Source of the DNA: Alphaproteobacteria bacterium | GTDB taxonomy: Bacteria; Pseudomonadota; Alphaproteobacteria; SMXS01 | Direction: 5' to 3' | Assembly: GCA_028284945.1 (NCBI GenBank) | Contig: JANQQJ010000006.1 | Coordinates: 1 to 64,000, forward strand | Length of the DNA stretch: 64,000 nucleotides | Shown here: positions 12,439-50,081 of the stretch, one piece after another | Numbering within the stretch: the first letter of the stretch is position 1 | Layout: each line of letters opens with the position of its first letter | Position numbers and translations under genes: made by a program | Notes under the pieces: generated by a model | Seen by the model: the letters and a program-made list of their open reading frames with translations, nothing else | Databases searched by the model: none | Told to the model about the DNA's origin: nothing

Positions 12439-12452
12439 GTCCTAGCAATCGG

Positions 12453-12558: not shown

Positions 12559-12567
12559 ATTATGCGT

Positions 12568-13548: not shown

Positions 13549-13616
13549 GTCTTTTGGGTGGTCTGTTGCAGCGGGACGCGACATTATACGCCCAACTGAT
13601 AAATGGGAGACAGATC

Positions 13617-14432: not shown

Positions 14433-14442
14433 GCTCAAGGGT

Positions 14443-14556: not shown

Positions 14557-14561
14557 GCACT

Positions 14562-15458
14562 TCACTCCGCCGCTGCAGCCTGTGGCACCGTCTCGGCGAG
14601 CGCCGGGTCATCGTCGTGGACCTGCACCAGTTCCAGATAGGAATCGTGGAAGTAGACGAAGGAAACGTCACCGCCGCCGTCGGGGAATGACTCGCGGGTC
14701 ACATCCAGCACGCCCTGTTTGTTCCAGGCGCCCATGCGGAAGTGGGAGTAACCGGCTTCCTTGAAGATGTCTTCGGTCCAGCGTGGTTCGATCCCATTGC
14801 CTTCCAGTGGCGTCAGCAGCACGATGGTGATGCCGGGTTTCTCGCGGCGAAGACGGGTAGCGTTGGCATAGCCGTAGAAGTCGACCGGCCCCTGGTTTTC
14901 CATGTCGAAGTGTTTGCACCAGTCAGCGGCGATCTGCTCCAGCTGGTCCGGTGCGGTGCAGATATAGATAACGTTGTTTTCGGCCCGGGTTGGTTGGGTG
15001 GGGCCCAGTTCGAAGACTTGTTTCTGCGGCCCGCGCACCAGGATCCAGTCCGCATCGCCTGATTTGAACGCGGCTTCATCCTCCGGCGGGCCCAGCGGTG
15101 TAACAAGGTCTTCCGCCTGCCATGCGGCATAAAGCCCGCGCGGGTCGGCATGGGTCAACCGGAAGAAGGTGTCGCCGACACGGGGCCGGTCGGTCGCCGG
15201 GCGCTCGACAGCCGTATAGGACGTAAAGCTGTCCATCTCGATATAGTCGACGTCTTCCTGGTTGCCCCGGTTCCAGATATATTGACGGCCCAGGCCCGGA
15301 TACATGTTTTCAATGAGCGTGCGGAACTCGGCGAGTTCAAGGAAGCGCAGCGCGCCCTTCAAGTCTCCGGTAATGGGGATGTCTTTCTGCACCGCGTCTT
15401 CCGGCGGCATGGCTTCAATGATGGTGGTGCCGTAATGGGCGATGGATGGCGCTGGCAT
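14562..15458 (-). CDS. VOC superfamily protein, double module
   Basis: This 298-residue protein has two VOC-like halves. The first covers about residues 25-160 and ends in QVFELGPT. The second covers about 165-280 and ends in FVYFHDSYLELVQV, the usual terminal metal-ligand strand (HDSYLELV). The length and double architecture resemble extradiol-type or glyoxalase-like proteins. First-module ligands are poorly conserved. It is divergently arranged with the VOC gene at 15569, sharing a 110-bp intergenic region, so the two are probably co-regulated. The function is not resolved. Confidence 0.72.
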   Translation of the reverse strand: MPAPSIAHYGTTIIEAMPPEDAVQKDIPITGDLKGALRFLELAEFRTLIENMYPGLGRQYIWNRGNQEDVDYIEMDSFTSYTAVERPATDRPRVGDTFFRLTHADPRGLYAAWQAEDLVTPLGPPEDEAAFKSGDADWILVRGPQKQVFELGPTQPTRAENNVIYICTAPDQLEQIAADWCKHFDMENQGPVDFYGYANATRLRREKPGITIVLLTPLEGNGIEPRWTEDIFKEAGYSHFRMGAWNKQGVLDVTRESFPDGGGDVSFVYFHDSYLELVQVHDDDPALAETVPQAAAAE

Positions 15459-15568
15459 GATTGTCTTCCCTGACCTGATTCTTTTGTGGGCGATAAACTA
15501 GCAGAGCCGGAGCGTCTGGCCTAGTATCACCAGCACGCATGACTTTATGAAACGGGATCACCTCCACC

Positions 15569-16429
15569 ATGAATATGGTTCAGACACATCACGGCATCAG
15601 CTGTTCGGATATCGTTGCCACCAAGCGGGTGCTGAAAGTGCTCGGCTTTCATGGGCATCAGCCCGGCGCGCCGGAGCCGCTGATTTATAAGAACACCGCC
15701 GACGACTATATCGGCCAGATTACCGCGCCGGTGCTGGGCGACAAATATCACACCCACTATGTCGAAAACACCGATACGGGCCATCAGGTCGACCTGATCG
15801 AAATCCAGCCGGAAGCACTGACGCCGCGCGCGTGGGACGTGCCCGCGCAGGGCGATCTGGTGATCGGCTTTCCGGTCGATGATCCGATGGAAATGTATAA
15901 GGCGATGCAGGCGGCCGACCCTGACTGCCAGTATTCAGAGCCCTTTGAGGTGCCAGAGGAAGACGGCATCCGCTTCGTCTGGCGTGACGGGCAGCACTCG
16001 ATCCTGACGCGGGGCAAGGACCCGTTTGCGATCCTGCATTACAATTCAGCCGACTGGCCAAAGGCGCGCGCCTTTTACGAAGAGGTGCTGCAGGTCGGTG
16101 TTGAGCCGCTGGCGGGCCGCGAAGCCGGTTGTGACCGCTTTGCGCTCGCCGGTATCAAGGGCCGCATGGATGTTGAAGTGCGCGACAGCACGCCGCGGCT
16201 CGACTTCCGCGCCTGGGGCAAACACTACCCGTCAGCCAATCACTTCCGGCTGATCGAACGGGACTTCGACCACATCGAACCCAAAGTCGCCGAAGCGCAT
16301 GAGGTCGGCTATGTCATCCCGCCGATGGGTGGATTCCAGTTTATCCATGGCCCCACGTCAGAGACCATTGAGATGTTCGACAAGAGCTTCGCGCCCGGCG
16401 CCCTGACCGACGCCGAGGCTGCGGAGTAG
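15569..16429 (+). CDS. VOC superfamily protein
   Basis: This 286-residue protein has an N-terminal VOC module (VQTHHGISCSD through YVENTDTGHQVDLIEI, about residues 4-80) and a weaker second module (about 150-275). The second starts near AILHYNSADWPKARAFYEEVL, typical of the helix after the first VOC strand, and ends ETIEMFDKS. Metal-ligand candidates are the early His residues and the terminal Glu. ATG 15575 is an alternative start. It diverges from the double-VOC gene at 15458. Substrate unknown. Confidence 0.72.
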   Translation: MNMVQTHHGISCSDIVATKRVLKVLGFHGHQPGAPEPLIYKNTADDYIGQITAPVLGDKYHTHYVENTDTGHQVDLIEIQPEALTPRAWDVPAQGDLVIGFPVDDPMEMYKAMQAADPDCQYSEPFEVPEEDGIRFVWRDGQHSILTRGKDPFAILHYNSADWPKARAFYEEVLQVGVEPLAGREAGCDRFALAGIKGRMDVEVRDSTPRLDFRAWGKHYPSANHFRLIERDFDHIEPKVAEAHEVGYVIPPMGGFQFIHGPTSETIEMFDKSFAPGALTDAEAAE

Positions 16430-16433
16430 TGAC

Positions 16434-17201
16434 CTAAAGCCCACCGGTCACCGACAGGATCTGGCCGGTCACCCAGCTTGATGCGTCTGAGGCGAGGTAG
16501 ACCGCTGCCGGGGCGATGTCTTCTTCCGCGCCCATGCGCTGCAGCGGAATGCCGATCATATCGACCAGGCCGGGCAGGGCTTCTTCGGTCAGGTTGAGGG
16601 CTTCCATGAACACTTCCGTCGGGATCGGCCCGGGGGCAATGGCGTTGACGCGGATCTTGGGCGCCAGCTCCAGCGAGAGTGTCTGGGTCAGCTGATTCAC
16701 ACCCGCCTTGGCCGCGCCATAGGGACCGTTATTGGGCGAGCCCTTGGCGGCCGCGACGGATGAAATATTGATCACTGTGCCGCCGTTTTCCATTTTGCGG
16801 GCCGCTGCGACAGAGCCCAGCCAAACGGCTTTGAGGTTCAGGCCTGACTGGAAATCCCACTGGCTTTCGGGCGTGTCGATCAAGTCGCGCATCACCCGGT
16901 CGTCGGCGCCGCCCGCATTGTTGACCCAGCAGGTCAGCTTGCCGAGCTGCTTGACCGTTTCGTCGGCCAGATTGTTGATGTCGTCCGTCACCATCATGTC
17001 CGTCGTGATGGCGGCCGCATTGCGGCCCAGCGCGCGAATTTCATCGGCGACCGCTTCGATCTCGTTGGTCCGGCGTGCTGCCACGGCAACATCGGCGCCC
17101 GCTTCGGCCAGTGCCAGTGCGATGGCGCGGCCAATGCCGCGCCCGGCGCCTGTCACGACGGCCACCTGGCCATCCAGGCGGAATTGATCCATGACGTTCA
17201 T
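16434..17201 (-). CDS. SDR family oxidoreductase
   Basis: This 255-residue classical SDR has TGAGRGIGRA near residue 17. An Arg-rich second strand end (AARRT) suggests NADP(H). NNAGG is at about 94, ISSVAAAK holds the catalytic serine, and PYGAAK holds the Tyr-x3-Lys pair. It is the most distal gene of the seven-gene minus-strand catabolic run. It is clearly paralogous to the SDR at 22583-23362, sharing the PYGAxK and SSWVTGQ segments. It may act on a hydroxyl produced by the P450 or by acyl-chain hydration; that is inference. Confidence 0.9.
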   Translation of the reverse strand: MNVMDQFRLDGQVAVVTGAGRGIGRAIALALAEAGADVAVAARRTNEIEAVADEIRALGRNAAAITTDMMVTDDINNLADETVKQLGKLTCWVNNAGGADDRVMRDLIDTPESQWDFQSGLNLKAVWLGSVAAARKMENGGTVINISSVAAAKGSPNNGPYGAAKAGVNQLTQTLSLELAPKIRVNAIAPGPIPTEVFMEALNLTEEALPGLVDMIGIPLQRMGAEEDIAPAAVYLASDASSWVTGQILSVTGGL

Positions 17202-17220
17202 AAGGTTCTCCCCGATTTGC

Positions 17221-17340
17221 CTGTTTGCCCGCCCGTACTTCGAGACGGTCCTTTCAGGACCTCCTCAGCACGAACGGGCTGTTGATAATCCGTTCGCCCT
17301 GAGGAGCCAGGCTTGCCGGGCGTCTGAAAGGGCAAACGGA
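17221..17340. repeat. Dispersed palindromic repeat, second copy of the 14443 family
   Basis: It contains CGTACTTCGAGACGG, CCTCAGCACGAACGG, CCGTTCGCCCTGAGGAG and GTCTGAAAGGGC in the same order as the 14443-14556 element. Outer GTTTGCCC/GGGCAAAC arms pair. It separates the SDR and P450 genes of the minus-strand run and could form a processing or stabilising hairpin in the transcript. Confidence 0.78.
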
Positions 17341-17360
17341 TTTATGACTTCCTATGGTGC

Positions 17361-18650
17361 CTAAGCCTTCTTCTTGTCGAAGGAAATATGCAGTTCCTTC
17401 ATCGGCCGCAGGCAGAAATTCGGATGGTGGCGGAAGGCGTTGCCCTCCTTGAGCTCAAAATCGTCGATCCGGTCGGTGAAGGCTTTGAAGCTCCAATAGA
17501 GTTCGCGGCGTGCCAGCGGCGCGCCCAGGCAGTGATGGATGCCTGACCCGAACCCGACATGAGACCCCGCGTTCTTGCGCTCCAGGTTGATGTCGTTCGG
17601 GCATTCGAAGTGGCGCGGGTCGCGGTTTGCTGCCGCATAGCGGATGTTGATCAGCGCGCCTGCTGGAATAGTCACGCCATGCAGTTCGACGTCTTTGGCC
17701 GCCGAGCGGAACAGCCCTTGTACCGGGCCTTCCAGCCGCACAACCTCTTCGCACAGGTTCCGCAGATATTTGTCCGGGTCTGATTTCAACTGTTCCCAGA
17801 CGGGCCGGTTGCGCCCCAACAGCATGATGCCATGAGCGATCGCATTGGTGGTGGTTTCCGAGCCACCGACGAACGTGTCGGCCATCATTTCCGAATGCAG
17901 CTCATTATCGTTGAGCTTGCGGCCCCATTCGGGGATTTCGTTATTCACAAGGTCCGACAGCAGTGTGTCGTCCGGCTGTTTGCGCAGCCGCTCGAAGATC
18001 GGCTGGAAATAGTGTTGAGCCTCAATCTCCTGCTCGACCGACCAGCGTTCCTCGTCCTCGGTCTGCATCATGCCCAGGCGCTGGACCCAGGCATCAGTCC
18101 AGGCCTTGATCTGCCAGATGTCTTCTTCCTTCGCGCCCATCTGCTTGCCGATGGTGAGCAAAGGCAGTGGAACCGCGAACTGGCGCACCCATTCGCATTC
18201 GCCCTCATCGATGAAGTCGTCCATCAATTTGTAAGCCAGGTTCTCCACAAAGGGATCCAGGTCCTTGATCTTGCCGGCCCGGAAGGCGACGTCGAACATG
18301 GCACGCATCTGCTTATGGTTCGGGTCGTCGCGCCCGGCCAGCGTCGGCGCGGGCAGCCAGCCTTTGCTCTCATAAAGGTCGCGCATGCGCTGGGCGCGGC
18401 CTTCATCCAGAACGCCGCGATTGTCCTTGCGCTCATTCGTGAAGTTTTCGGTATCCATCAGAATGGCGCGGATATCAGCATAGCGCGTGACCACATAAAA
18501 CCCGGTGATCGGGTCCTGCCACACCGGTGCTTCCTCGCGTAGCACGTCATAGGCCGGATACGGACATTCCTGAACCTCGGCATCAAGGAGGTTCACTTCG
18601 TCTGGTGAGCCCGGAATGATCGGGTCATCCATGCGATTGACTTCGGTCAT
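17361..18650 (-). CDS. Cytochrome P450
   Basis: This 429-residue soluble bacterial P450 is a haem monooxygenase that hydroxylates a hydrophobic substrate. The I-helix oxygen-activation motif is VGGSETTTN. The K-helix ExxR is EVVR. The haem loop FGSGIHHCLG places the axial cysteine at residue 374. Length is normal for class I CYPs, which need a ferredoxin and reductase; none is encoded in this window. It lies 97 bp downstream of a DapB-like gene in a run with an acyl-CoA ligase and SDRs. Such settings are known from terpenoid and steroid side-chain degradation, but the substrate here is not known. Confidence 0.93.
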   Translation of the reverse strand: MTEVNRMDDPIIPGSPDEVNLLDAEVQECPYPAYDVLREEAPVWQDPITGFYVVTRYADIRAILMDTENFTNERKDNRGVLDEGRAQRMRDLYESKGWLPAPTLAGRDDPNHKQMRAMFDVAFRAGKIKDLDPFVENLAYKLMDDFIDEGECEWVRQFAVPLPLLTIGKQMGAKEEDIWQIKAWTDAWVQRLGMMQTEDEERWSVEQEIEAQHYFQPIFERLRKQPDDTLLSDLVNNEIPEWGRKLNDNELHSEMMADTFVGGSETTTNAIAHGIMLLGRNRPVWEQLKSDPDKYLRNLCEEVVRLEGPVQGLFRSAAKDVELHGVTIPAGALINIRYAAANRDPRHFECPNDINLERKNAGSHVGFGSGIHHCLGAPLARRELYWSFKAFTDRIDDFELKEGNAFRHHPNFCLRPMKELHISFDKKKA

Positions 18651-18747
18651 CGTCTTCCCCTGAAAAAATCTACCTGCGTCCCCGTGCCCATCTTAGGGGC
18701 GGGCGGTTTACCTTCAAGGATGAATTTAAGCCGCCCGGGCGGACAGA

Positions 18748-19824
18748 CTACTTCTTTTTCGCCGGTTTCTTTGCCGGCACGTTGACCAGGCCCTTACCCA
18801 TGATCCAGGGCAGGTCGAGGAAGGTCTTGATGCCCGGTTCCGCCTCACAGACATAGGGAATTGCGTTCACCGCGTGGGTCGCCGTCGACAACAGGCCGCC
18901 ATCGACCCACAGGGGCGACAGTTCGATGCGGATATTGGGCTCGCCCTTGATCGCCACAGAATGAACGCCCTGCGGCCAGTCCTTGCCGACGCTTTCATGC
19001 ATCCGCCAGACGGTTTCGTGCACGATCACCTTCTTGCGGCCGACCATGCCGGCCCATTCCCAACGCTGGCCCGCGACCGTGCCTTTCTTGACCGTACCGG
19101 CGGCCGTTTTCAGGTTCTTCTTCGCCAGCTCACGGGTCGTCTTGTCTGTGATCTTGTCGAGTTTGACGCCCAGCCCGTCGGCCACCATCTGGATGTTCTC
19201 GCGAAACAAGCCGGTCAGCCAGTTTGAATACCGCGCCGTGGCCTTGCGGAACTCTGCCGGTGTCTTGCCGAAGTTCATCATGTCGAACATGACTTCGGGT
19301 GACGGGTAATACTCGAAGTTGGAAATCTCCTGCACATAAACCTGGTCGATCCGGTTCGACAGAGACGTCATGGTCAAGGGCAACAGGTCACCGACCCAGC
19401 CTGGGTTCACCCCGGTTGAATGGAAGGTCGTGCCACCCTTTTTGCACGCGGCGTTCAGGCGCCGGACCACTGATGGACCATGTACCTTGGGGTACATATA
19501 GCCGACAGTAGTGATAACGTTTTTGCCCGAGGCCAACAGTTTGCAGATGGTCGCGATATCCGCATCCGGATCGTCGCCATAGACCAGCGAGGGCAGCGGC
19601 GTGTGAATCACCACATCGGCCTTGGTATTCAGGATTTCGTCGATATCGTTGGTCGCCGTCACACCCTGCTTTTTGATCCCGGCGATAGTGCCTGCGTCTT
19701 GCCCGGCCTTTTCATCCGAATAGACATAAAGCCCGGCCAGCGACATCCCCTTGCGGCCGGCGACCGCCTGCATGGCGTGTGTACCGACGTTCCCGCTCGA
19801 CCACTGAATTACTTTGTAAGGCAT
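18748..19824 (-). CDS. DapB-like NAD(P)-dependent dehydrogenase, paralogue 1
   Basis: This 358-residue protein resembles the dihydrodipicolinate reductase N-terminal domain and amine-dehydrogenase-like proteins. A Rossmann fold begins VIQWSSGNVG (about residues 4-13), followed by ADVVIHTPLPS and NVITTVGYMYP, then KKGGTTFHSTGVNPG. The rest is an alpha/beta domain. It is much longer than true DapB (about 270), so lysine synthesis is unlikely. The C-terminus is lysine-rich (PAKKPAKKK). A paralogue lies 72 bp upstream. The two may form a heteromer or act at different steps; the reaction is unknown. Confidence 0.78.
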   Translation of the reverse strand: MPYKVIQWSSGNVGTHAMQAVAGRKGMSLAGLYVYSDEKAGQDAGTIAGIKKQGVTATNDIDEILNTKADVVIHTPLPSLVYGDDPDADIATICKLLASGKNVITTVGYMYPKVHGPSVVRRLNAACKKGGTTFHSTGVNPGWVGDLLPLTMTSLSNRIDQVYVQEISNFEYYPSPEVMFDMMNFGKTPAEFRKATARYSNWLTGLFRENIQMVADGLGVKLDKITDKTTRELAKKNLKTAAGTVKKGTVAGQRWEWAGMVGRKKVIVHETVWRMHESVGKDWPQGVHSVAIKGEPNIRIELSPLWVDGGLLSTATHAVNAIPYVCEAEPGIKTFLDLPWIMGKGLVNVPAKKPAKKK

Positions 19825-19896
19825 GACGCACTCTCCGTTTTTTCAGGGGCGGTACCCTACACGGCCCGATCCGTGGCCCCAATAGGTGATAAGGGC

Positions 19897-20976
19897 CTAG
19901 CGCTTTTTCTTCGCGGGCTTCTTTTTCGGCACGTTGACCAGGCCTTTGCCCATGATCCAGGGCAGGTCAAGGAAGGTTTTGATCCCCGGATCGGCCTTAC
20001 AGACATGGGGGATGGCGTTGACCGCGTGCAGTGCGGCTGCATCGAGCATGCTGTCGATCCAGTCTCCCGCGATCTCGATCCGGATATTCGGTTCGCCGTT
20101 AATTGTGACCGAGTGGTCACCTTGGGGCCAGTCCTTGGCCGCGGCCTCATGCATGCGCCAGATCGTCTCATGGGTAATGACCTTTTTGCGTCCGGCCCAG
20201 CCGGCCCATTCCCAGCGTTGGCCTGCAACCGTGCCCTTCTTAATTGTGCCGGACCCGGTCTTGTGATTCCGCGTGGCGAGAGAAAGTGTCGTTTTTGTGG
20301 ATATCTTGTCCAACGTCACACCCAGCCCATCGGCGACCATCTGGATACTCTCGCTGAACAACTCGGTTAGCCAGCGCGCGTGCCGCCCGGAATCCTTCTT
20401 GAACTGGGCCCGGGTTTTGCCGAACCCCATAATGTTGAACATGATGACGGGGGCGTTGCCATGCTGAAAATTCGATATTTCCCGCACGGCGACCTGATCG
20501 ATCCGGTTGGACAGGGACGACATGGTGAGCGGCAGCAGATCGCCGATCCATCCGGGGTTGCTGCCAGTGGAATGAAAGGTCGTGCCGCCTTTCTTGCAGG
20601 CCGCGTTCAGCTTCCGCACCACCCGGGGGCCATGGAATTTCGGGTACATGTAGCCCACGGTGGTGATGACGTTCTTGCCGGAGGCCAGAAGCTGGCAAAT
20701 GATGTTGAGATCGGCATCCGGATCGTCGCCCCAGACCACAGAGGGCAGGGGCGTATGAATGACCACATCAGCCTTGGTCTTGAGGATTTTATCCATGTCA
20801 TCGGTAGCGATGACGCCGGTCTTTTTCACACCGACGATGGTGCCGGCGTCTTTACCCACCTTGTCGGGGGAATAGACATAAAGCCCGGCCAGCGACATGT
20901 CTGACCGCCCGGCGACAGCGGCAATGGCAGGGGCGCCGACACCGCCGCTCGCCCATTGAATGACTTTATAGGCCAT
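19897..20976 (-). CDS. DapB-like NAD(P)-dependent dehydrogenase, paralogue 2
   Basis: This 359-residue protein is a close paralogue of the one at 18748-19824. It has the same N-terminal Rossmann start (VIQWASGGVG), the same VVIHTPLPS and KKGGTTFHSTG segments, and a similar lysine-rich end (KKKPAKKKR). Differences concentrate in the middle domain (residues about 165-260), where substrate specificity may lie. The pair arose by tandem duplication. It lies 25 bp downstream of the acyl-CoA ligase in the same run. The natural substrate is not known; family members include 2,4-diaminopentanoate dehydrogenase-like enzymes. Confidence 0.78.
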   Translation of the reverse strand: MAYKVIQWASGGVGAPAIAAVAGRSDMSLAGLYVYSPDKVGKDAGTIVGVKKTGVIATDDMDKILKTKADVVIHTPLPSVVWGDDPDADLNIICQLLASGKNVITTVGYMYPKFHGPRVVRKLNAACKKGGTTFHSTGSNPGWIGDLLPLTMSSLSNRIDQVAVREISNFQHGNAPVIMFNIMGFGKTRAQFKKDSGRHARWLTELFSESIQMVADGLGVTLDKISTKTTLSLATRNHKTGSGTIKKGTVAGQRWEWAGWAGRKKVITHETIWRMHEAAAKDWPQGDHSVTINGEPNIRIEIAGDWIDSMLDAAALHAVNAIPHVCKADPGIKTFLDLPWIMGKGLVNVPKKKPAKKKR

Positions 20977-21001
20977 GAGGTCGTCTCCTCTATGTCTGTC
21001 G

Positions 21002-22576
21002 CTAGCCCACCCGCCCTTCGCGGCCGGCCCAATAGGGTTCGCGGAGCTCGCGTTTCAACAGTTTGCCGATGGTTGAGCGGGGCAGGCTGTCGCGGAACTC
21101 AACGGCGGACAGCCGTTGTTGTTTGCCAAGCTGTTGATTGGCCCAATTGCAGATTTCTTCTGCGGTCGCCGCTGCGCCTTCCTGCGTAACAACCAAGCCC
21201 AGGGGCGTTTCACCCCAGTCGTCACTGGGAATGCCGATCACCGCCACGTCATGTACATCCGGGTGTTTCTGCAGCGCGGCTTCCAGGTCAGCGGCATAGA
21301 CGTTGAAGCCGCCGGAGATGATCATGTCCTTCATACGGTCGAGTAGAATGACAAAGCCGTCTTCGTCCATCTTGCCCATGTCGCCGCTGCGCTGCCAGAT
21401 GCGGCCCTGCTCGTCGACCCAGCGGGACTCGGCCGTTTTGTCCGGCTTGTTGTAGTAACCGGTCATCATGAAGTCGGACCGGCCGATCAGTTCACCCGTT
21501 TCGCCGCGCGGCACCTCGTTCATATCCTGATCGACAATGCGGAATTCCGCGCCCTCGATCGGTTGCCCGACCGTGTGCAGCTTGTCGGGATGATCGTGCG
21601 CATCGAGCCGGCAGCCGACCCCGCCTTCTGTCATGCCGTAGATTTCAGTCAGGCCCCCAGGCCAGTCGGTGATCAACCACTTCTTGTGCTCGGGCCGCAG
21701 GGGCGCCGACGTGGAGAATTTCCAGATGAAACTGCTGAGGTCGTATTTCCCCACATCCGGAAAATCATGCAGCCGGTGGTACTGCACCGGCACCTGAATG
21801 GTGTGGGTCGCCTTTTCCTGTTCTGCCAGACGCAGATAATTCGCCGTGTCCGACCGCGGCAGCAGAATCACCGTGCCGCCCCAGGCCACCGTGGGCAACA
21901 GGGCAAACAGCGTTGTGTTGGAATAGAGCGGCGTCGACAGGATCATCCGCGTGTCGGTCCAAAAACCGTATTGGTCGCGCCCGCCCCAATAGGAAATACG
22001 GGTGCGGTGATCGTGCAGAATGCCCTTCGGCACGCCAGTGGTGCCTGATGAATAGATGATGTTGAAATCATCCAGCACATCGATGCTGGTGTCCGGATTA
22101 AGGTCCGGTTGGCCCGCGATCCAGCCGTGATAATCGGACCAGCGGGCATCACTGAAGTCGAACGCAAACCGCCCGCCCTCCAAAATGCTCGGAAGGTCCG
22201 CATCAATCTCATCGATCAACGGTTTGGTTTTAAGCGATATGAACAGGGCTTTGGCGCCACTGTCCTGGATCATCAACTTAAGCGAATCCGCTGTTGCCAT
22301 GCCCGACAGCGGCACGACGCAGGCCCCGGCGCGCAGGATGCCGAAGAAGGTGCAGAAATAGTCGACCGACGTATCGGCCAGAATCGCGACCTTGTCGTTG
22401 CGGCCAATGCCCAGTGCGATCAGGCCATTGGCCACGCGGTTGACCGTGTTGTCGACTGCCGCCCAGGAGAGGCGGGTGTCTTCGAACACCAGCGCCTCTC
22501 CATCAGGGCGCGTTCGAGCGTGATAGTCGATCAGGTCCGAGATGTCGGCCTGATCGCTAAACGCGGACAGAGCCAT
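21002..22576 (-). CDS. Acyl-CoA synthetase (AMP-binding ligase)
   Basis: This 524-residue ANL ligase activates a carboxylic acid as its CoA ester. Visible motifs are YSSGTTGVPKG (A3), YGMTEGG (A5), RSGDMGKMDEDGF (A7), DRMKDMIISGG (A8) and the catalytic lysine in STIGKLLKRELR. The C-terminus LREPYWAGR resembles that of the ligase at 3906-5438. It is 6 bp downstream of an SDR and 25 bp upstream of the DapB-like pair. A CoA ligase in this run suggests that the pathway handles an acid or an oxidised side chain. Confidence 0.9.
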   Translation of the reverse strand: MALSAFSDQADISDLIDYHARTRPDGEALVFEDTRLSWAAVDNTVNRVANGLIALGIGRNDKVAILADTSVDYFCTFFGILRAGACVVPLSGMATADSLKLMIQDSGAKALFISLKTKPLIDEIDADLPSILEGGRFAFDFSDARWSDYHGWIAGQPDLNPDTSIDVLDDFNIIYSSGTTGVPKGILHDHRTRISYWGGRDQYGFWTDTRMILSTPLYSNTTLFALLPTVAWGGTVILLPRSDTANYLRLAEQEKATHTIQVPVQYHRLHDFPDVGKYDLSSFIWKFSTSAPLRPEHKKWLITDWPGGLTEIYGMTEGGVGCRLDAHDHPDKLHTVGQPIEGAEFRIVDQDMNEVPRGETGELIGRSDFMMTGYYNKPDKTAESRWVDEQGRIWQRSGDMGKMDEDGFVILLDRMKDMIISGGFNVYAADLEAALQKHPDVHDVAVIGIPSDDWGETPLGLVVTQEGAAATAEEICNWANQQLGKQQRLSAVEFRDSLPRSTIGKLLKRELREPYWAGREGRVG

Positions 22577-22582
22577 CGGGGC

Positions 22583-23362
22583 TTACGCGCCGCCAGTGAC
22601 AAAAAGGCACTGGCCGGTGACCCAGCTTGACGCGTCGGAGGCCATGTAGACGACGGCAGCGCCGATATCTTCCGGTTCGCCCCAGCGTTCCAGCGGCAAC
22701 TGGATGTACTGCTTCAATTCGGCTTCGCGTTCGGGCGTGTGCATCTTCATCGAGTCGATGAAGTTCTCTGTCGGGATCGGTCCGGGCGCCACCGCATTGA
22801 TGCGGATATTGGGCGCCAGCTCGCGCGAGAAGGTGGCCGTCATGCTATTGACGGCTGATTTGGACGCGCCATAGGGACCGTTCTTTGGGTTCGGGCCCAT
22901 ATTCTTTGATGAGCTGGAGGAGATATTAACGATGGAGCCGCCATTTTCCTTCATGTGCTTGGCGGCCTCTACGCAACCGGCCCAGACCGCCGTCAGGTTC
23001 AGGTTGATCTGCGCCTGAAACTCCTCGACAGAGGTGCGTGTCATCCAGCGCGGCGTGCCATCGGGCAGGCCACCGGCATTGTTAACCCAAATATCGATCT
23101 TGCCGAACGCTTCAACGGCTGCGTTACCCAGCCGCTCCAGGTCGGCTTCGCTGGTGACATCGGTCTGAACCGCGATGGCCTGGCGCCCCCGATCGCGGAC
23201 TTCCTGCGCGACGCTCTCAATATCGTCCTTGCTCCGGGCTGCGATAACGACATCCGCCCCGGCTTCGGCCAGGCAATGCACAATGCCCCGGCCAATGCCT
23301 TTACCGCCGCCTGTAACAACCGCGGTTTTCCCGTCCAGTTTGAACTGGTCTAATACACTCAT
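22583..23362 (-). CDS. SDR family oxidoreductase
   Basis: This 259-residue classical SDR has TGGGKGIGRG near residue 17, AARSKD (NADP-type), NNAGG near 94, a serine-rich ISSSSSKN strand end, and PYGASKSA carrying Tyr-x3-Lys. It is a paralogue of the SDR at 16434-17201. It is second in the minus-strand run after the MDR gene and 6 bp upstream of the ligase, so tight co-expression is likely. Its substrate is presumably the same molecule handled by the P450 and ligase; that is inference. Confidence 0.9.
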   Translation of the reverse strand: MSVLDQFKLDGKTAVVTGGGKGIGRGIVHCLAEAGADVVIAARSKDDIESVAQEVRDRGRQAIAVQTDVTSEADLERLGNAAVEAFGKIDIWVNNAGGLPDGTPRWMTRTSVEEFQAQINLNLTAVWAGCVEAAKHMKENGGSIVNISSSSSKNMGPNPKNGPYGASKSAVNSMTATFSRELAPNIRINAVAPGPIPTENFIDSMKMHTPEREAELKQYIQLPLERWGEPEDIGAAVVYMASDASSWVTGQCLFVTGGA

Positions 23363-23437
23363 CGATTTTCCCCTGACTTTTGATCTTCGTTGAACCCTGC
23401 ATAGGGTGTTATGGGCTGGCGTGCAACCAGCGGCCCG

Positions 23438-24469
23438 TTAGCTGTCGGCGGCAGGCAGTTTGACGACCATCTTGCCCTTGTTCTTGCCGGAATAGAGGTC
23501 GTGGAACGCCTGACCGAAATCCTGTACGTCGCCCTCAAAAACGTGCTCTGCGAACTTCAGTTTGCCAGCGGTTGCCCACTCGGACATGTGTTTGCGGGCC
23601 GTCTCGAACCGGTCTGCATAGTCGAAGACAACAAAGCCCTGCATGCGGGCCCGCATGGTCCCCAGCCAGATATATTGTTTGGGTCCCGCCATCTCGTCCT
23701 GCGAATATTGCGAGGTTGAGCCACACAACAGAACCGTCCCGTGCAGCGCGATCCAGCGCAGGCTTTCATCCAGCACATGGCCCCCGACATTATCGAAGAT
23801 GAAGTCGATCCGGTCCGGCGCTGCTTCGACCAGTTTTTCGTATAGATCGCCGTCCTTGTAATCGACGGCCGCGTCGAAGCCGAGTTCGTCGACCAGCCAT
23901 GCGCATTTTTCGGGCCCGCCAGCAATCCCGATTACCCGCGCCCCGGCCAGCTTGGCGAATTGACCGGCCATGGTGCCGACGGCGCCAGCCGCCCCGTTAA
24001 TCACGACGGTCTGGCCTGGTTGGGGCTTGCAGGCGTCAAAAATCGCGAAATAGGCAGTTAAGCCCGAAACGCCATAGCCGCCCAGCCACGCCGACAGCGG
24101 CGCTTTTGAAATATCACAGCGTTCAAGGCCGGTGCCGTCCGAAACGGCATAGTTCTGAACCCCGACGCCCGCGACCACATAGTCGCCCACGGCCCAGTCC
24201 GGATGGTTGGATTGTACAATCTTGCCCGCGATGGAATTGCGGATCAGGTCGCCGGGCTCGACTCGGAACAGAAAGTCCTTGCTGTCGCGCACGATCAGCC
24301 GAAGGGCCGCATCCATTGACAGATAATGACTTTCAATCAGCACTTCGCCGTCACCCGGTTCGGGGACCGGTGCTTGCCGCACCTCCATATCATCCGGGCC
24401 CAGAAGCCCCTGTGGAACCTGTTTCAGATAGACCTGATTGTTGCGTGCGCCCTCTGCTGTGCCGCTCAT
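23438..24469 (-). CDS. MDR-family NADP-dependent oxidoreductase
   Basis: This 343-residue zinc-free medium-chain reductase is of the prostaglandin/leukotriene reductase type, which reduces enone double bonds using NADPH. The nucleotide loop INGAAGAVGTMAGQ (about residue 156) and FDNVGGHVLDESL (about 223) are typical. ATG 24469 is chosen because GGGGGGAG lies just upstream; the frame extends further upstream without a ribosome site. It is the first gene of the minus-strand run and divergent from the TonB receptor. A relative is at 37348-38367. Confidence 0.87.
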   Translation of the reverse strand: MSGTAEGARNNQVYLKQVPQGLLGPDDMEVRQAPVPEPGDGEVLIESHYLSMDAALRLIVRDSKDFLFRVEPGDLIRNSIAGKIVQSNHPDWAVGDYVVAGVGVQNYAVSDGTGLERCDISKAPLSAWLGGYGVSGLTAYFAIFDACKPQPGQTVVINGAAGAVGTMAGQFAKLAGARVIGIAGGPEKCAWLVDELGFDAAVDYKDGDLYEKLVEAAPDRIDFIFDNVGGHVLDESLRWIALHGTVLLCGSTSQYSQDEMAGPKQYIWLGTMRARMQGFVVFDYADRFETARKHMSEWATAGKLKFAEHVFEGDVQDFGQAFHDLYSGKNKGKMVVKLPAADS

Positions 24470-24651
24470 TTTTCTCCCCCCCTTACATCGAACAGTCATG
24501 CATGACCGTAGCTGACAGTGCTGGGCCAATGCCTTGTGAGTCAAGGTGAAACGCGGATTGACCGCGTGTTTCCGACCTTCAAACCGGGGCATCGGCGCGT
24601 TCATTATGATGCATTTCTGCAACACCGGAAAACTATCTTTTCCGCTAACAG

Positions 24652-24670
24652 TCACGCGTGCGTGATTTTT
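24652..24670. promoter_or_regulatory. Palindromic site in the MDR/TonB divergent region
   Basis: TCACGC-GT-GCGTGA followed by six T residues lies midway in the 297-bp gap between the divergent catabolic run and the TonB receptor. A near-identical TCACGCGTGA plus T-tract lies at 50807-50822, also between divergent genes. It could be an operator shared by two loci. The rest of the gap shows no clear promoter. Confidence 0.35.
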
Positions 24671-24766
24671 TCGTGACGGGACTCCGCTGCGGGACTAGTC
24701 TCGCCTTCAATTACGTCCGCAAAAAATGCGGCGTTCGAGGTATGTCACCTACTGGGGAGTCTCCAA

Positions 24767-27589
24767 ATGACATCAAAGACGAGTCGGATTCTATCCGCAG
24801 CCGGCCTGGCGTTTGGCTTGATGGCCGCGCAGCCAGCACTGGCCCATATGACCGCGATCGATCCGGGTGTCGCACCCGATGACGTCCAAGGCGGCACGGT
24901 TACGTTGCCGAACGGACAGCAGGCTGATGTTATCAGCCGCGAGCAGTGCGAAGCGCAAAAGACAGGCGATGAGTCCTGTAATGATGGTGAGTTGTTTGTT
25001 CGCACCGCCGCGCCATTGGCAGCGGGCTCGCAGGTCAGCTATTCGGTTGTTGTAAATGGGCAGACCCGCACGGGTACGGCGACAGCCGGTTCCGGCGGCA
25101 GCTTGGCTGGTGTCCTGTCGGCGGCGATCGGAGCGGCATCGCGCGCTGGGCTCGAAACGATTATGTCAACGGCGACGCGTCAAGCGACTGATCTGCAGTC
25201 AACGCCGATTGCAACAACCGCAGTTTCCGCGGAGGCGATTGAAAAGCGCTTTGTTGACGATATTCGCGGCTTGGCCGATCTCGTCCCGAACGTGACGATT
25301 GAGAACATTACGGGCTTCAATGCCGCATCAATCGGTATTCGCGGTACAGGCACCAACGACATTATTACGACCATTGACTCAGCAGTCGGTGTGGTTGTCG
25401 ACGAAATGGCACTGGTGCACACCCAGGGCCAATTGCTGGATCCGTTCGACGTTGAAAACGTCGAAATTCTGCGTGGTCCGCAGGGTACACTGTTCGGTAA
25501 GAACACCACTGGTGGTGTTGTCCTGATCCGGACCAAACGCCCGGTCCACAACGAATACAATGGCCACGTGCAGCTTCGTGCCGGTAATCACAGCACGTTG
25601 GAAGGCCGTGTTGCAGTGAACGTGCCCCTGCTGGAAGACAAGCTCTCCATGCGGTTCGTCGGCACCTATCAGTATGATGCGGGTCAGTACACCAATGACA
25701 AAGTCAGCCAAGTCTATCCCAATGCTGACGGGCAAACGCCACTTGGTTTGCCTGTAAACGGTGACGGCCGCAGCCTGGATGGCACGGATGTGTTCTACGG
25801 ACGTGCCAAGGTGCTGTTCACGCCGTCTGACAACTATGAAGCGCTGCTGACGTTTGAATTGCTGCGCGACCGTTCCGATACGCCGCCGGCAATCAACGAG
25901 ACGCCGCTGGATGGCCAGCTCGATAAGTTCGGCATTCCCCGTGAGTTCCTGTTCAATCCGATCGGCTTCCCGGGCTTCCAGCAGACCTGTCCGGGCGGTG
26001 AGAAAGCCAAGCAGAGCTGTATCTTCAGCACCGGCGTCAGCTTCCGTGACGATGGGCTGCGCATGGAGCGCGGCCACCGCATGGAAGTCGAGGGCATCTA
26101 TCTGGATCAGGAACTTGATCTGGAAAACATGACGATCGAGCTGTTCCTCGGTTACCGTCATCAGAAAGAGCGTCTGCCCAGCACCTATACGGGTGAGGCA
26201 TTCCCGTCACTGTTCGACGCCACGCGTAATCTGGAGCGCCGTCAGTTCCAGGCTGAACTGCGCTTCACGTCCAACTTCGACGGTCCGTTCGACTTCATTG
26301 CTGGTGCCGCTTACTTCACCAATGACAATGACTGGCGCGCGATGAGCTATGTTGGCTTCACCAATGTGCCGATCAATCTCGGCGGCTGTAACATCGTCGA
26401 TCCCGTTGGCGACCCGAACTGTTTCGTCATCAATGGCGCGGCAAACGAACGCCCGAACTTTGCGCAGCTGACCCAAGACGCTGAAGCCATCGGCATCTAC
26501 TTCGAAGGCTACTACCAGATCACCGATGCGCTGCGTTTGACCTTCGGTGCTCGTTATTCCTACGAGAAGAAGACGTTCTTCAAGGGTAATGGCGCATCGC
26601 TGACGCTGGATGAGGTTGAGCTCTTCCGATCCACTGGCGGCGACCGCACCTTGGGTGATATGCTGCTGGAAGGTGTCGATCCGATGAACCCGGGCCGCTT
26701 CAACTTCTTCGTCGACAATCGCGACAGCTGGGACAACGTCACCTTCAAGGGTGTGTTGGACTATGATTTCGGCGATGGCAGCTTTGCCTATTTCAGCTTC
26801 AACCAGGGTTTCAAATCGGGCAGCTTCGCCGAAACCTGTACGTCAATCGGTACGTGTGAGGCGTTTGATGAGGAATCCGCCGACTCTTACGAGTTGGGCT
26901 ATAAGGGTGACTTCTTCGACAACACGGTCCGTGTGAACTTCGCTGCGTTCTATACCAAGATCAACGACGTGGTTCGGTCTCAGGTTGTCCGTATCATCAA
27001 CCAGTTCGGCGACCCCGATCAGGAAACCCAGTTCCGGAACATTGCCGGTCAGGAAAATTATGGTCTCGAACTTGAGATCACCTGGCTGGTCACTGAGAAC
27101 TTCCGGGCGAACTTCAATGGTTCTTACCTGCATTCACGGTATACGGAGTTCTTCACCGATGTTGACGGTGGCGCCGGCAGTGAGACCATGAACGAGTGTT
27201 TGAACCTTGATGAGGCGGGTAACGACGACGCGTCGTGCCTGGGTATCCGCCCGAACTTCGCCCCGACATGGCAGTTCGGTGCCGATTTCACCTGGGACAT
27301 CCCGCTGGGTAATTCCGGCATGATGGTCTGGAACGGCAGCATTCACTGGATGCCGGAATACGAATATTCGGTCTTCAATTCAGACTTCACCCAGGTTCAG
27401 GAGCGTACGCTCATCAACATGAGCCTGACCTGGATTGATCCGCAGGATCGTTTCCAGGTGTCTGTGTTCGTCAAGAACCTGCTCAATGAAACCTATCGTG
27501 TTTCGGCCAACTCCGTTGCCGGCCTCTGGAACTTCTCCCAGTACGGTCAGGATCGGCGTTGGGGCGGTGAGTTGAACTTCCGCTTCTAA
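24767..27589 (+). CDS. TonB-dependent outer-membrane receptor with unusual N-terminal domain
   Basis: This 940-residue receptor actively imports a substrate across the outer membrane using TonB. It has a signal peptide (about residues 1-26, ending ALA). About 90 residues of uncharacterised domain containing Cys-x9-Cys (REQC...DESC) follow. A TonB-box-like stretch (ETIMSTATRQ) comes next, then the plug with NVEILRGPQGTLFGKNTTGG (about 225-245), and the 22-strand barrel ending in ELNFRF. The terminal Phe is the normal assembly signal. The extra domain does not read like an STN or carboxypeptidase-regulatory domain. It diverges from a seven-gene catabolic run and is followed by an MFS transporter, so it probably imports the run's substrate. 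Confidence 0.93.
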   Translation: MTSKTSRILSAAGLAFGLMAAQPALAHMTAIDPGVAPDDVQGGTVTLPNGQQADVISREQCEAQKTGDESCNDGELFVRTAAPLAAGSQVSYSVVVNGQTRTGTATAGSGGSLAGVLSAAIGAASRAGLETIMSTATRQATDLQSTPIATTAVSAEAIEKRFVDDIRGLADLVPNVTIENITGFNAASIGIRGTGTNDIITTIDSAVGVVVDEMALVHTQGQLLDPFDVENVEILRGPQGTLFGKNTTGGVVLIRTKRPVHNEYNGHVQLRAGNHSTLEGRVAVNVPLLEDKLSMRFVGTYQYDAGQYTNDKVSQVYPNADGQTPLGLPVNGDGRSLDGTDVFYGRAKVLFTPSDNYEALLTFELLRDRSDTPPAINETPLDGQLDKFGIPREFLFNPIGFPGFQQTCPGGEKAKQSCIFSTGVSFRDDGLRMERGHRMEVEGIYLDQELDLENMTIELFLGYRHQKERLPSTYTGEAFPSLFDATRNLERRQFQAELRFTSNFDGPFDFIAGAAYFTNDNDWRAMSYVGFTNVPINLGGCNIVDPVGDPNCFVINGAANERPNFAQLTQDAEAIGIYFEGYYQITDALRLTFGARYSYEKKTFFKGNGASLTLDEVELFRSTGGDRTLGDMLLEGVDPMNPGRFNFFVDNRDSWDNVTFKGVLDYDFGDGSFAYFSFNQGFKSGSFAETCTSIGTCEAFDEESADSYELGYKGDFFDNTVRVNFAAFYTKINDVVRSQVVRIINQFGDPDQETQFRNIAGQENYGLELEITWLVTENFRANFNGSYLHSRYTEFFTDVDGGAGSETMNECLNLDEAGNDDASCLGIRPNFAPTWQFGADFTWDIPLGNSGMMVWNGSIHWMPEYEYSVFNSDFTQVQERTLINMSLTWIDPQDRFQVSVFVKNLLNETYRVSANSVAGLWNFSQYGQDRRWGGELNFRF

Positions 27590-27616
27590 GCTACGGCTGA
27601 CGATACCAACAGAAGG

Positions 27617-27643
27617 GGCGGGTGCTGCGGCACCCGCCTTTTT
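27617..27643 (+). terminator. Rho-independent terminator after the TonB receptor gene
   Basis: A perfect 9-bp stem, GGCGGGTGC (27617-27625) and GCACCCGCC (27630-27638), has a TGCG loop and is followed by TTTTT at 39-43. It ends the receptor transcript 28 bp after the stop, so the MFS gene probably has its own promoter or depends on read-through. Confidence 0.92.
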
Positions 27644-27703
27644 GTTTGTATCGAACGCCAATAATCAGTTGATTGCCAGCCTCAGCCATAGGCTAATGAA
27701 CTC

Positions 27704-29089
27704 ATGAGTTCCCAACCCGCCGCGACAGAGAGTGCGCCTGGATCAGGCGCTTCAGAACCTCCCTGGCCCAACATCCGCTATGCGTGGTTTGTCGTCTTCA
27801 TCCTCTATATCGCGTCGATCTTCTCGTTTCTCGACCGGCAGATTATTTCGCTGATGGTTGAAGACATTAAGGTCGACCTTGGCCTGACTGACTTCCAGAT
27901 CGGGATGGTGCAGGGGCTTCCCTTCGGGCTGTTCTACGCTTTGATGTCGATCCCCATCGCGCTGGCGGCAGACCGCTATAACCGCCGGAACATCATCGTC
28001 ATCGGCGTGACGTTCTGGAGCCTGGCGACGGCCGCATGCGGCCTGGCGGCCAATTTCTGGCATCTGTTCCTGGCCCGCGTCGGCGTGGGCAGCGGCGAAG
28101 CGACCCTGAGTCCGTCCGCCTATTCCATGATCAGCGACTATTTCCCCAAGTCTAAGCTGGCATTGGCCATGGCTGTGTTCACCATGGGCAATCTGACCGG
28201 TGTGGGTCTGGCGATGATTCTGGGCGGCGAAGTGATTGCTTATGCCAAGAGCCTGGGCAGCCTGGAATTCTGGCTTCTGGGCGAACTGCGGCCCTGGCAA
28301 TTCTCGTTCATCGTGATCGGTTTGCCTGGCGTATTGCTGGCGATGTGTGTGTTTCTGATCCGTGAACCCGTAAGGCGTGGCCGGCTTAACGCGGACGGTG
28401 CGTCGGAGACAGACGGAACCAGCCTGAAGGAGTTCTTCGCTTTTGCTGGCCAGCACAAACTGACCTTTGCGTCGCTGTTTGGCAGCTTTACGCTTTTGGT
28501 GCTGGTCGCCTATGGCAACTTCGGCTGGGTACCGACCTTCCTTATCCGCACCTATGGCATGACAGAGGTTCAGGCCGGCGCCGCCTATGGCACCGTGGTG
28601 CTGTTCTTTGGTACCAGTGGCGCCTTCTTCGGCGGTTGGTTATCAAGCTGGCTGGCCAAACGGGGGCATGGCGACGCGCCCTATCGGGCGACTATGCTGT
28701 GTTCCATTCCCACCGCGCCCCTGGCGCTGGCGGCGTTCGTTTTATCGCCGAACGAGAATTGGTCGGTCGCGCTGCTGGCGCCGCTTCAATTTGTTGGGGC
28801 CGTTCCGGCCGGGCTGGCCGCGACGGCGATGATGACGATCACACCCAATCAGATGCGGGCCAAGATCGGCTCTGCCTATCTGTTTTTCAGCAACGCGATT
28901 GGACTGAGCCTGGGTGCGACCACCGTCGGGTTCCTGACGACCTATGTGTTTCATGATCCAGCGCGGGTGGATTACTCGCTGGCCATTGTCAACTGCATCG
29001 GCGCGCCGCTGGCCGTGATCGTGATCTGGTTTGGCATGAAGCCGTTTCGCGCCAGCCTCGAAAGGGTTGAAAGCCAGGCGACGGCTTAG
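27704..29089 (+). CDS. MFS transporter (spinster-like)
   Basis: This 461-residue 12-helix inner-membrane carrier is of the major facilitator superfamily. Helix 1 carries FSFLDRQIISLM and loop 2-3 has the ADRYNRR signature. Helix 4-5 shows the GVGSGEATLSPSAYSMISDYFP stretch typical of spinster-type MFS. It lies just downstream of the TonB receptor, behind a terminator. The pair gives an outer- then inner-membrane import path for a hydrophobic substrate; the substrate is inferred only from context. The start is ATG 27704. Confidence 0.88.
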   Translation: MSSQPAATESAPGSGASEPPWPNIRYAWFVVFILYIASIFSFLDRQIISLMVEDIKVDLGLTDFQIGMVQGLPFGLFYALMSIPIALAADRYNRRNIIVIGVTFWSLATAACGLAANFWHLFLARVGVGSGEATLSPSAYSMISDYFPKSKLALAMAVFTMGNLTGVGLAMILGGEVIAYAKSLGSLEFWLLGELRPWQFSFIVIGLPGVLLAMCVFLIREPVRRGRLNADGASETDGTSLKEFFAFAGQHKLTFASLFGSFTLLVLVAYGNFGWVPTFLIRTYGMTEVQAGAAYGTVVLFFGTSGAFFGGWLSSWLAKRGHGDAPYRATMLCSIPTAPLALAAFVLSPNENWSVALLAPLQFVGAVPAGLAATAMMTITPNQMRAKIGSAYLFFSNAIGLSLGATTVGFLTTYVFHDPARVDYSLAIVNCIGAPLAVIVIWFGMKPFRASLERVESQATA

Positions 29090-29096
29090 GCAGCCA

Positions 29097-30668
29097 TTAC
29101 TCGGCGGCTGCCCCGGGGGCGGGTGGTGGCGACTTGCGCCGGCGGCTGACCGCGGGCTTCTTGGCTGCAGAGCTCTTTGCGGTTCTGCTCTTCGCCGTTC
29201 TGCTTTTGGCCGCAGGTTTGCGGCGCGGCGGGGTCGGCTTCTTCGGCGGGATTGCGGCATCGCGCAGCTCAATGAAGGCTTCGCGCAGGCAGCTGATATA
29301 GAATTCCGGATCCGGCATAACCTCGCGGTCGGACATCGCGGTAATCGTCACCTTGCTGTTATAGCTCAGGACTGTGTGGAACAGCGCCTGGGCGTTCTGG
29401 ACAATGCCAAGGCCATATTGATTGACCAGTTCGGCACCACAGAAATAGAGCGGTTGCTGCGGTCCGGGAACGTTCGTGACCACCGTGTTGAAGCTGGGCT
29501 GCATCTGCGTGGCCAACCCCATCTGAGAGAACATCCGCGCGGCCATCCCCGTCGTCGCAGAAGGGATGAACTGGCTGAAATCGGTCATCAGTCGGGCGCC
29601 AACGGCGTTGGTCAACTCTTTTGAATCCGCCGTCGAGTTGCGGACGGCTTCCAGGCGCTGAAGCGGATCGGCGATATCAGTACCCAGTGACGCCAGCATG
29701 CCGGCCACCTCGTTGCCGCCATTGCGGGCGTTGGCGGCGTCGCTCCGTACGGAGACCGGCGACAGGGTGATCAGCGACTTATCCGCGGGGAGCTCCCCGC
29801 GCGCTTCAAGGTAACGGCGCAGTGCGCCGCCCGTTATGGCGATTACGACGTCGTTGACTGTCGCGCCGCGCACGGCATTCTTCATCTCACGGATATCGGA
29901 CAGATCGACCGAAATTCCGTTGACCACACGGTGGCCCGAGACCTCGCCGTTGAAGCGGGTTTGCGGCACGTCTCCAATCGGGGATGGCATGCGGATGGCG
30001 TCTTCGCCAATCGTGGCCAGCAAACGCGTCGAGGCGGGGACGGATTCAGCCATGACGCGCATGAACTTCATTGGTTGGGCCAGATTATTCAAATAGGCAC
30101 GCCCCAAGAGTTCTAGTTCATTGGGGGGGCTGTCGGGCGACCACGGTTCAGGGTCACCCTGGCGAAGCCCGGGTTCGGTTTCATGAAGCGCGGTATTCAT
30201 CGCCACACTCGAAACACCGTCGATAGCGGCGTGGTGTAGCTTGGTAATTATCGCAAAGCTGCCGGGCGGCAGGCCTTCGACATTGTCGAGGCCTTCAACC
30301 ACATGCATCGACCAAAGCGGGCGCTTCAGGTCGAGCGGGCGGTCGTAGATTCGTGAGGCCAGAATACATAATTGCCGCCAGTCGCCGGGCTGCGGCAGCG
30401 CGACGTGACGAACGTGATATTCCAGATCGAACTTATCGTCATCCACCCAATAGGGATGGTCCAGGTTCAGGGGAACACTGGCAACTTTCTGACGGTACCT
30501 GGGGGCGCGGTGTATCCGCGCCGCCAGGTAGGTCAGTATCTGGCGGAAGCGAAGCTTGGCGCCGGGGACGGTCGACTGATCGTAGATGTAAAGCCCGCCA
30601 ATGTGGTTTGAGACGCGCTCGTTCTCCAGGTAGAGAAAGGATGCATCAAGCGGGCTTAATTGTTCCAT
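29097..30668 (-). CDS. Wax ester synthase/diacylglycerol acyltransferase (WS/DGAT)
   Basis: This 523-residue enzyme esterifies a fatty acyl-CoA to a fatty alcohol or diacylglycerol, making wax ester or triacylglycerol. The catalytic HHAAIDG is at residues 145-151. PLW (about 117-119) and VNDVVIAITGGALR (about 275) are also family signatures. The last 45 residues are a Lys/Arg/Ala/Pro-rich tail with repeated AKSRTAKS units, not part of the usual fold. It is 33 bp downstream of a phasin gene in the same orientation. The pair suggests a lipid-granule locus. A long tail of this type may bind nucleic acid or granule surface; that is inference. Confidence 0.92.
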   Translation of the reverse strand: MEQLSPLDASFLYLENERVSNHIGGLYIYDQSTVPGAKLRFRQILTYLAARIHRAPRYRQKVASVPLNLDHPYWVDDDKFDLEYHVRHVALPQPGDWRQLCILASRIYDRPLDLKRPLWSMHVVEGLDNVEGLPPGSFAIITKLHHAAIDGVSSVAMNTALHETEPGLRQGDPEPWSPDSPPNELELLGRAYLNNLAQPMKFMRVMAESVPASTRLLATIGEDAIRMPSPIGDVPQTRFNGEVSGHRVVNGISVDLSDIREMKNAVRGATVNDVVIAITGGALRRYLEARGELPADKSLITLSPVSVRSDAANARNGGNEVAGMLASLGTDIADPLQRLEAVRNSTADSKELTNAVGARLMTDFSQFIPSATTGMAARMFSQMGLATQMQPSFNTVVTNVPGPQQPLYFCGAELVNQYGLGIVQNAQALFHTVLSYNSKVTITAMSDREVMPDPEFYISCLREAFIELRDAAIPPKKPTPPRRKPAAKSRTAKSRTAKSSAAKKPAVSRRRKSPPPAPGAAAE

Positions 30669-30701
30669 CGACGGGCCGACCGTTCCTAAAGCGACGCTGG
30701 C

Positions 30702-31130
30702 TTATTTGGCAGACGCCTGAAGGTCGCTGACAGATTCCTGCCAACGGCGGCCCAGAACGCTCCAGGCTTCAGTCTGCGACTTGCTGGCGATCTCGGCCAG
30801 TTCGCGGAAATTGGCGACGGACTTTTCGAAGTTCTCGCGCGCGACTTCAGCGGGCTTCGACATCAGGTCGCCGCCGTTGCCGGATGTCAGGCTCTGCGCC
30901 GAATCCTGGAACTGCGTGAACGCTTCGGTCAGCATTTCCTGCTGGCGCGAGGCGAGGGTCTGCATGCCTTCAACGGTAATGCGGCCGGCTTCGCTGATCG
31001 CATCCATGTTGGCCTGGCCGGTCTTCATGACCGCGTCCATGTCCATGCCCGGCAGGTTGGCCGGCTGGAACTGTGACATCTGCTTGGAAAAAGTCTCGAA
31101 CATCTCTGAAAACGGGTTGGTCTGGCTCAT
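30702..31130 (-). CDS. Phasin family protein
   Basis: This 142-residue mostly helical protein is of the phasin_2 type. Repeated short amphipathic helices carry the typical Q/E/A-rich segments RQQEMLTEAFTQFQD and ENFEKSVANFRELAEIASKSQTEA. Phasins coat polyhydroxyalkanoate granules, and similar proteins coat other storage bodies. ATG 31130 is chosen because GGAGAGCTCC precedes it. The gene sits between the WS/DGAT gene and a candidate PhaR-regulated promoter. No PHA synthase is in the window, so coating of neutral-lipid bodies is an alternative role. Confidence 0.85.
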   Translation of the reverse strand: MSQTNPFSEMFETFSKQMSQFQPANLPGMDMDAVMKTGQANMDAISEAGRITVEGMQTLASRQQEMLTEAFTQFQDSAQSLTSGNGGDLMSKPAEVARENFEKSVANFRELAEIASKSQTEAWSVLGRRWQESVSDLQASAK

Positions 31131-50078: not shown

Positions 50079-50081
50079 GGA

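Follow-up and report, generated by a model that had tools for sequence, protein, structure and literature searches.

Nine adjacent genes in a 64-kb stretch of an alphaproteobacterial genome (contig JANQQJ010000006.1, positions 1 to 64,000; the window below) raise the question of whether a cytochrome P450, its neighboring oxidoreductases, and a TonB-dependent receptor act together on one compound, and on which. The genes span positions 16434-29089 of the window, and the assembly comprises 3.56 Mb and is 99% complete. A search for 16S in this genome found none; the solved structure closest to its RpoB is 7ye1, from Caulobacter (2171 bits, with 1802 for the second best), which indicates Alphaproteobacteria. 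Our analysis favors, with modest confidence, a catabolic island that is conserved in the lineage and directed at a hydrophobic compound, probably alicyclic/terpenoid- or steroid-like. From enzyme classes alone, the favored substrate would be an acid or ketone with an alicyclic or terpenoid-like structure.

Seven of the genes lie on the minus strand and two on the plus strand, and the open reading frame (ORF) list and domain scans agree with the divergent arrangement described in an earlier note on this DNA, apart from one start codon. In the direction of transcription, the minus-strand genes encode a medium-chain dehydrogenase/reductase (MDR; 23438-24469, PF16884 and PF00107) of the double-bond (curcumin/prostaglandin) reductase type, a short-chain dehydrogenase/reductase (SDR2; 22583-23362, PF13561), an AMP-binding acyl-CoA ligase (21002-22576, PF00501, 9.7e-74), two DapB-like proteins (copy 1, 19897-20976; copy 2, 18748-19824), the P450 (17361-18650, PF00067), and a further SDR (SDR1; 16434-17201, PF13561, 1.3e-56). 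The MDR start is moved from 24655 to 24469 by codon scoring, a strong ribosome-binding site (GGGGGGGAG), and homologues in sibling genomes that have the same length of 343 amino acids, which leaves a divergent promoter region of 297 bp between the MDR and receptor genes. The enzyme genes are separated by gaps of 6-159 bp, a close spacing that is compatible with one transcript. On the plus strand, the TonB-dependent outer-membrane receptor (TBDR; 24767-27589, PF00593 and PF07715) is, at 940 amino acids, the longest complete ORF in the window, and a major facilitator superfamily (MFS) transporter (27704-29089, PF07690, 6.5e-43) lies downstream. An inverted repeat, GTCACG..CGTGAC, on the plus strand of the divergent region (24650-24677) is a candidate regulatory element. 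Of the 18 bp in its core, 16 are kept at the corresponding position ahead of the receptor orthologue in sibling genome G003. No regulator gene occurs within the block in the window.

The grouping of these genes recurs in the order, which was sampled by ten genomes from one family and three genera. The DapB-like gene is found in nine of the ten. Window positions 11000-30900 are colinear with one place in each of two genomes of another genus (G003:C2:634977-681656 and G004:C2:327833-364193), and the colinear set in both comprises acyl-CoA dehydrogenase, racemase/enoyl-CoA hydratase, SDR1, P450, DapB-like, ligase, SDR2, MDR, receptor, and MFS genes. G003 alone adds a pair of VOC-like genes and a WS/DGAT gene. 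Insertions stretch the island to 36-47 kb in these two genomes (47 kb in G003 vs 20 kb here), and they bring in a MarR-EmrAB pump, an iron-type alcohol dehydrogenase (Fe-ADH), a second P450, ABM proteins, and extra TBDRs; sibling clusters also carry an SMP-30-like lactonase. In G009, the order of P450 and SDR1 is swapped and the MDR gene is elsewhere, while the remaining genes are still grouped, on two contigs that seem to be neighbors. Because the set has survived insertions and one local change of order, its linkage looks maintained beyond chance. The earlier note held that its proposal would fall if the genes did not co-occur in related genomes; they do so across all three genera, receptor and MFS carrier included. 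Positions 43000-62900, taken as a control, map to several scattered places, with an ~8-kb sub-block that is colinear too. Positions 50150-58560 are colinear with G003:C1:1950560-1958724, where an extra P450 that is 73% identical to the cluster P450 has been inserted.

Sequence identity with siblings is 67-79% for SDR1 and 69-73% for the P450, both at the same locus, 64-73% for the ligase, and 71-78% for SDR2. The receptor has an orthologue at G003:C2:673079 (71% nucleotide identity), and MFS homologues 58-64% identical adjoin TBDRs in G001, G003, G004, and G009. An N-terminal extension of the receptor (24767-25200) is unrecognised by Pfam and absent from the G003 orthologue.

The enzymes resolve into classes more readily than into substrates. 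The P450 scores above the PF00067 gathering score and carries the I-helix (A/G)GxxT motif as GGSETT, the ExxR motif as EEVVR, and the cysteine-ligand motif as FGSGIHHCLG; its solved relatives cover many different substrates. Each of the ten genomes (2-4 Mb) sampled from the order has 18-40 P450 matches, with 30 in this one, a density that is high for Proteobacteria. The nearest solved relative of the ligase is FadD13. With the model of the steroid side-chain CoA synthetase CasG (NF052580), the ligase reaches 237.5 bits against a cut-off of 750, and no genome of the order has a match above that cut-off, so a steroid side-chain pathway was rejected. SDR2 exceeds the cut-off of PRK07231, a generic model. 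The MDR scores 295 bits with NF058644 (cut-off 440), and its nearest named solved relatives are double-bond reductases.

The proteins of the DapB-like pair, previously described as DapB-like dehydrogenases, do not qualify as DapB. TIGR00036 gives them 28.7 and 31.1 bits (cut-off 122) over residues 5-81 only, and Pfam finds DAP_DH_C where the DapB C-terminal domain would be, so that only the N-terminal domain is common with DapB. On these two grounds a role in lysine synthesis was rejected. Sequence and predicted fold instead place the pair with the native amine dehydrogenases (AmDHs), to which both copies have significant similarity over their whole length. The C-terminal PF19328 domain, which in both copies follows an N-terminal DapB_N domain (PF01113 in copy 2), is found in the two copies at 8.6e-22 and 9.2e-20, above the gathering score. 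An AlphaFold model of copy 2 has a predicted local distance difference test (pLDDT) score of 89.8; one alignment used in structure prediction omitted two plasmid proteins. In fold comparison, which was accompanied by a Foldseek search, the model gives Z scores of 32-36 to AmDH structures (35.9 to TtherAmDH; 35.9 to 7xdu and 35.2 to 6g1m) and falls to 19 for DapB. Gfo/Idh proteins, biliverdin reductase, and BioU rank only among general Rossmann relatives.

The pair thus has the two-domain architecture, fold, and full-length similarity of AmDH4, TtherAmDH, MsmeAmDH, and CfusAmDH (PF19328), but it departs from them at the active site. Both copies have GY at the position of the catalytic EE of AmDH4. 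The P3 glutamate (Glu) is absent from these and from every orthologue of the order, and copies and orthologues have a VGYM motif in common. Amine dehydrogenase activity was judged improbable for the predicted proteins because this catalytic Glu is missing. The pair corresponds in this to the Glu-less members of group G5 of the native AmDH family, which were found inactive as amine dehydrogenases (PMC11164908). Judged by sequence and model, the DapB-like proteins are relatives of native AmDHs without the catalytic Glu.

The tandem arrangement of the pair, which the earlier note named with the gene order as unfamiliar, appears to be a local event. Copies 1 and 2 are 74% identical and are sisters with full support in a tree of 18 sequences, with branches of 0.30 and 0.097, respectively. 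The tree indicates that the gene was duplicated, as is seen in this genome alone, and that the copies then diverged unevenly, copy 1 about three times faster. Siblings have a single copy, and the tandem is therefore not essential and cannot define a pathway. The earlier statement that the gene order is unfamiliar stands, as no pathway could be named for it. There are no other PF19328 members elsewhere in this genome. Two or three Glu-less PF19328 paralogues also lie side by side in unrelated phyla (L007 8159-11524, L005, L009, L011, and L063). Most such pairs are old, and the only recent sisters are the pair in this window and one from Mycobacterium sp. M26.

Outside the order, an SDR gene lies within 400 bp of the DapB-like gene in 9 of 28 loci where ~1 is expected, from a background of 0.026 per kb at distances above 3 kb that is rough because it derives from only seven such SDRs. 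Three of the nine loci come from one genome, and counting that genome once gives 7 of 26. Only 4 of 31 loci have a P450 gene in the vicinity, which is too weak to claim an association. Among these four, a locus in an Ilumatobacter metagenome-assembled genome encodes a P450 and a DapB-like protein with 59% and 56% identity, and P450, SDR, and DapB-like genes are consecutive on the Sphingobium plasmid pKN1. Four loci of family f49 (L058-L061), in AT-rich genomes of 1.3-1.4 Mb, have a single DapB-like gene, 45-47% identical, among housekeeping genes. Its retention in such small genomes suggests a role beyond this island. A link to a Rieske gene in the 1.4-Mb genomes was discarded; the neighbors are pantothenate and phosphate genes, and the nearness is probably incidental. 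Because the DapB-like gene occurs in other contexts, such as alone in 1.4-Mb genomes, we regard the Glu-less enzyme as a predicted portable module that is not tied to this pathway.

The core of the block as first delimited is retained, and an extension to its left is probable. Two VOC-like genes just outside it, each encoding a two-domain protein, probably belong to the island. The minus-strand gene (14562-15458) has no Pfam or NCBIfam match and is retained beside the DapB-like locus in G003 and G009, and also in G131 and G234 from other families. The product of the plus-strand gene (15569-16429) is 65-76% identical in G003, G009, and G131; its VOC assignment comes from residue pattern alone, namely a possible metal triad of the conserved His157, His225, and Glu268, with no Pfam, NCBIfam, or PDB match and an AlphaFold pLDDT of 44. 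In G131, homologues of both genes and a Rieske oxygenase gene are near the DapB-like gene, and in G234 the Rieske gene and a homologue of 14562-15458, not of the second VOC-like gene, are found there. Since VOC-like genes accompany the DapB-like gene in these two genomes, we count them as likely parts. An enoyl-CoA hydratase/isomerase family gene on the plus strand (13617-14432, PF00378) is a possible part at the left edge. Its nearest NCBIfam models, PRK06210 and EchA19, both score below cut-off, and it keeps the same position in all three genera with 70-78% identity. The mandelate racemase-like gene at 12568 was rejected as a pathway member; it scores above cut-off as DgcA, an N-acetyl-D-Glu racemase, and is a cell-wall gene that forms the left neighbor of the block. 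Farther to the right, positions 35112-41655 encode a Rieske oxygenase, an SDR, and an MDR, followed by ferrochelatase and squalene-hopene cyclase, and the MDR-ferrochelatase-cyclase order is common to siblings G001 and G004.

If the genes form one pathway, then passage of the compound through the outer membrane would depend on the receptor, and the MFS transporter may carry it across the inner membrane. The P450 could hydroxylate an unactivated carbon, and the SDRs would oxidise the resulting alcohol to a ketone. The Glu-less AmDH-fold enzyme might catalyze a further NAD(P)-dependent carbonyl/alcohol step in the same compound series, and hence its recurring place beside SDRs. The MDR would reduce a conjugated C=C bond, and the ligase would form a CoA thioester whose chain enoyl-CoA hydratase and acyl-CoA dehydrogenase then shorten. 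For the VOC-like pair, cleavage or isomerisation of an intermediate is a possible role. In this genome only, duplication of the Glu-less enzyme might have adapted the faster copy to a second substrate. That the Glu-less enzyme catalyzes a novel NAD(P)-dependent reaction, with a P450/SDR product as its substrate, in an undescribed pathway, is a tentative proposal. A literature search for a described cluster of P450, DapB-like, and CoA-ligase genes found nothing on point.

Divergent operons with a TonB receptor and a P450 are an established arrangement for taking up and attacking steroids (PMC7793797). By layout only, the nearest described system is the edc estradiol cluster of Novosphingobium (Caenibius) tardaugens, whose divergent operons likewise encode a P450, an acyl-CoA dehydrogenase, and a TonB receptor for the substrate, together with VOC-type proteins that the VOC-like pair may match (PMC7793797). 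The divergence of P450 and TonB receptor is present here and recurs at sibling loci, whereas the CoA ligase, MDR, and Glu-less AmDH-like pair are additions of the island. EdcC, an indolepyruvate ferredoxin oxidoreductase, was not found among the domain-scanned genes of the window, which has no ORF that large; this result is limited to the window. Because there is no EdcC-like gene in the window, the extradiol 4,5-dioxygenase EdcB is unconfirmed, and the ligase, MDR, and Glu-less enzyme are extra, the island resembles edc at the level of uptake and P450 attack and is not an edc member. Another lead, at the level of gene content, is the dit cluster for abietane diterpenoids in Pseudomonas abietaniphila, where a P450, an SDR, a CoA ligase, and a ring oxygenase act on a carboxylic diterpenoid. 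We know of no combination of a TonB receptor with a DapB-like protein in dit.

Several observations weigh against a catabolic island. No close characterised homologue points to a substrate, and EmrAB efflux genes lie inside the sibling versions. The latter observation is the basis of the main rival, an unlikely one in our estimation, in which a hydrophobic toxin (e.g. a host or algal defence terpenoid) would be modified by the P450 and oxidoreductases and then exported instead of serving as a carbon source. MarR-EmrAB multidrug-pump genes within sibling clusters would fit such detoxification, as would an MDR family that includes alkenal/double-bond reductases able to remove reactive enones. 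However, the block in this genome is without EmrAB, TonB receptors import, and the linkage of CoA ligase, enoyl-CoA hydratase, and acyl-CoA dehydrogenase genes points to beta-oxidation. Additional genes of catabolic type in the sibling clusters (Fe-ADH, second P450, SMP-30-like lactonase, and ABM proteins) also count for catabolism.

Also adverse are a strong terminator-like hairpin that splits the TBDR and MFS genes (27612-27643, plus strand; a 14-pair stem followed by TTTTT) and a synteny that spans unrelated genes as well, from DgcA on the left to the hopene cyclase region on the right, so that general conservation of gene order may account for part of the linkage. As a class, terminator-like sites do not exceed their frequency in shuffles. 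The MFS gene may be a separate transcription unit, and its position behind the TBDR need not mean a shared transcript; the order of receptor and carrier was described correctly, and their cotranscription is in doubt. Somewhat less probable than detoxification is that receptor and carrier on one side and the enzyme run on the other are two or more unrelated units with different substrates, neighbors by inherited order. The hairpin, several tandem TBDRs at a sibling locus, the independence of the DapB-like gene in other families, and the colinearity of ~8-kb sub-blocks elsewhere are consistent with this, but the set stays together across genera despite insertions that more than double its length in G003. 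It seems very improbable to us that the genes make or tailor a lipid or secondary metabolite, for instance one derived from the hopanoid of the nearby squalene-hopene cyclase, with the MFS protein as exporter. Squalene-hopene cyclase, WS/DGAT, and phasin genes do adjoin the block in a neighborhood conserved in siblings; a TonB receptor is unexpected for export, and the annotated genes within the block include no nonribosomal peptide synthetase, polyketide synthase, or terpene synthase.

Catabolism of a hydrophobic compound remains the reading we favor, and its wider interest lies in the Glu-less enzyme. If this protein does act on a P450/SDR product, it would supply the first native role for the large, functionless Glu-less G5 branch. 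Glu-less members of the native AmDH family are widespread, and a pathway open to testing is offered by a conserved island in which one of them is set beside a TonB receptor, a CoA ligase, SDRs, and a P450. The P450-rich, little-sampled alphaproteobacterial order is also indicated as a source of oxidation chemistry.

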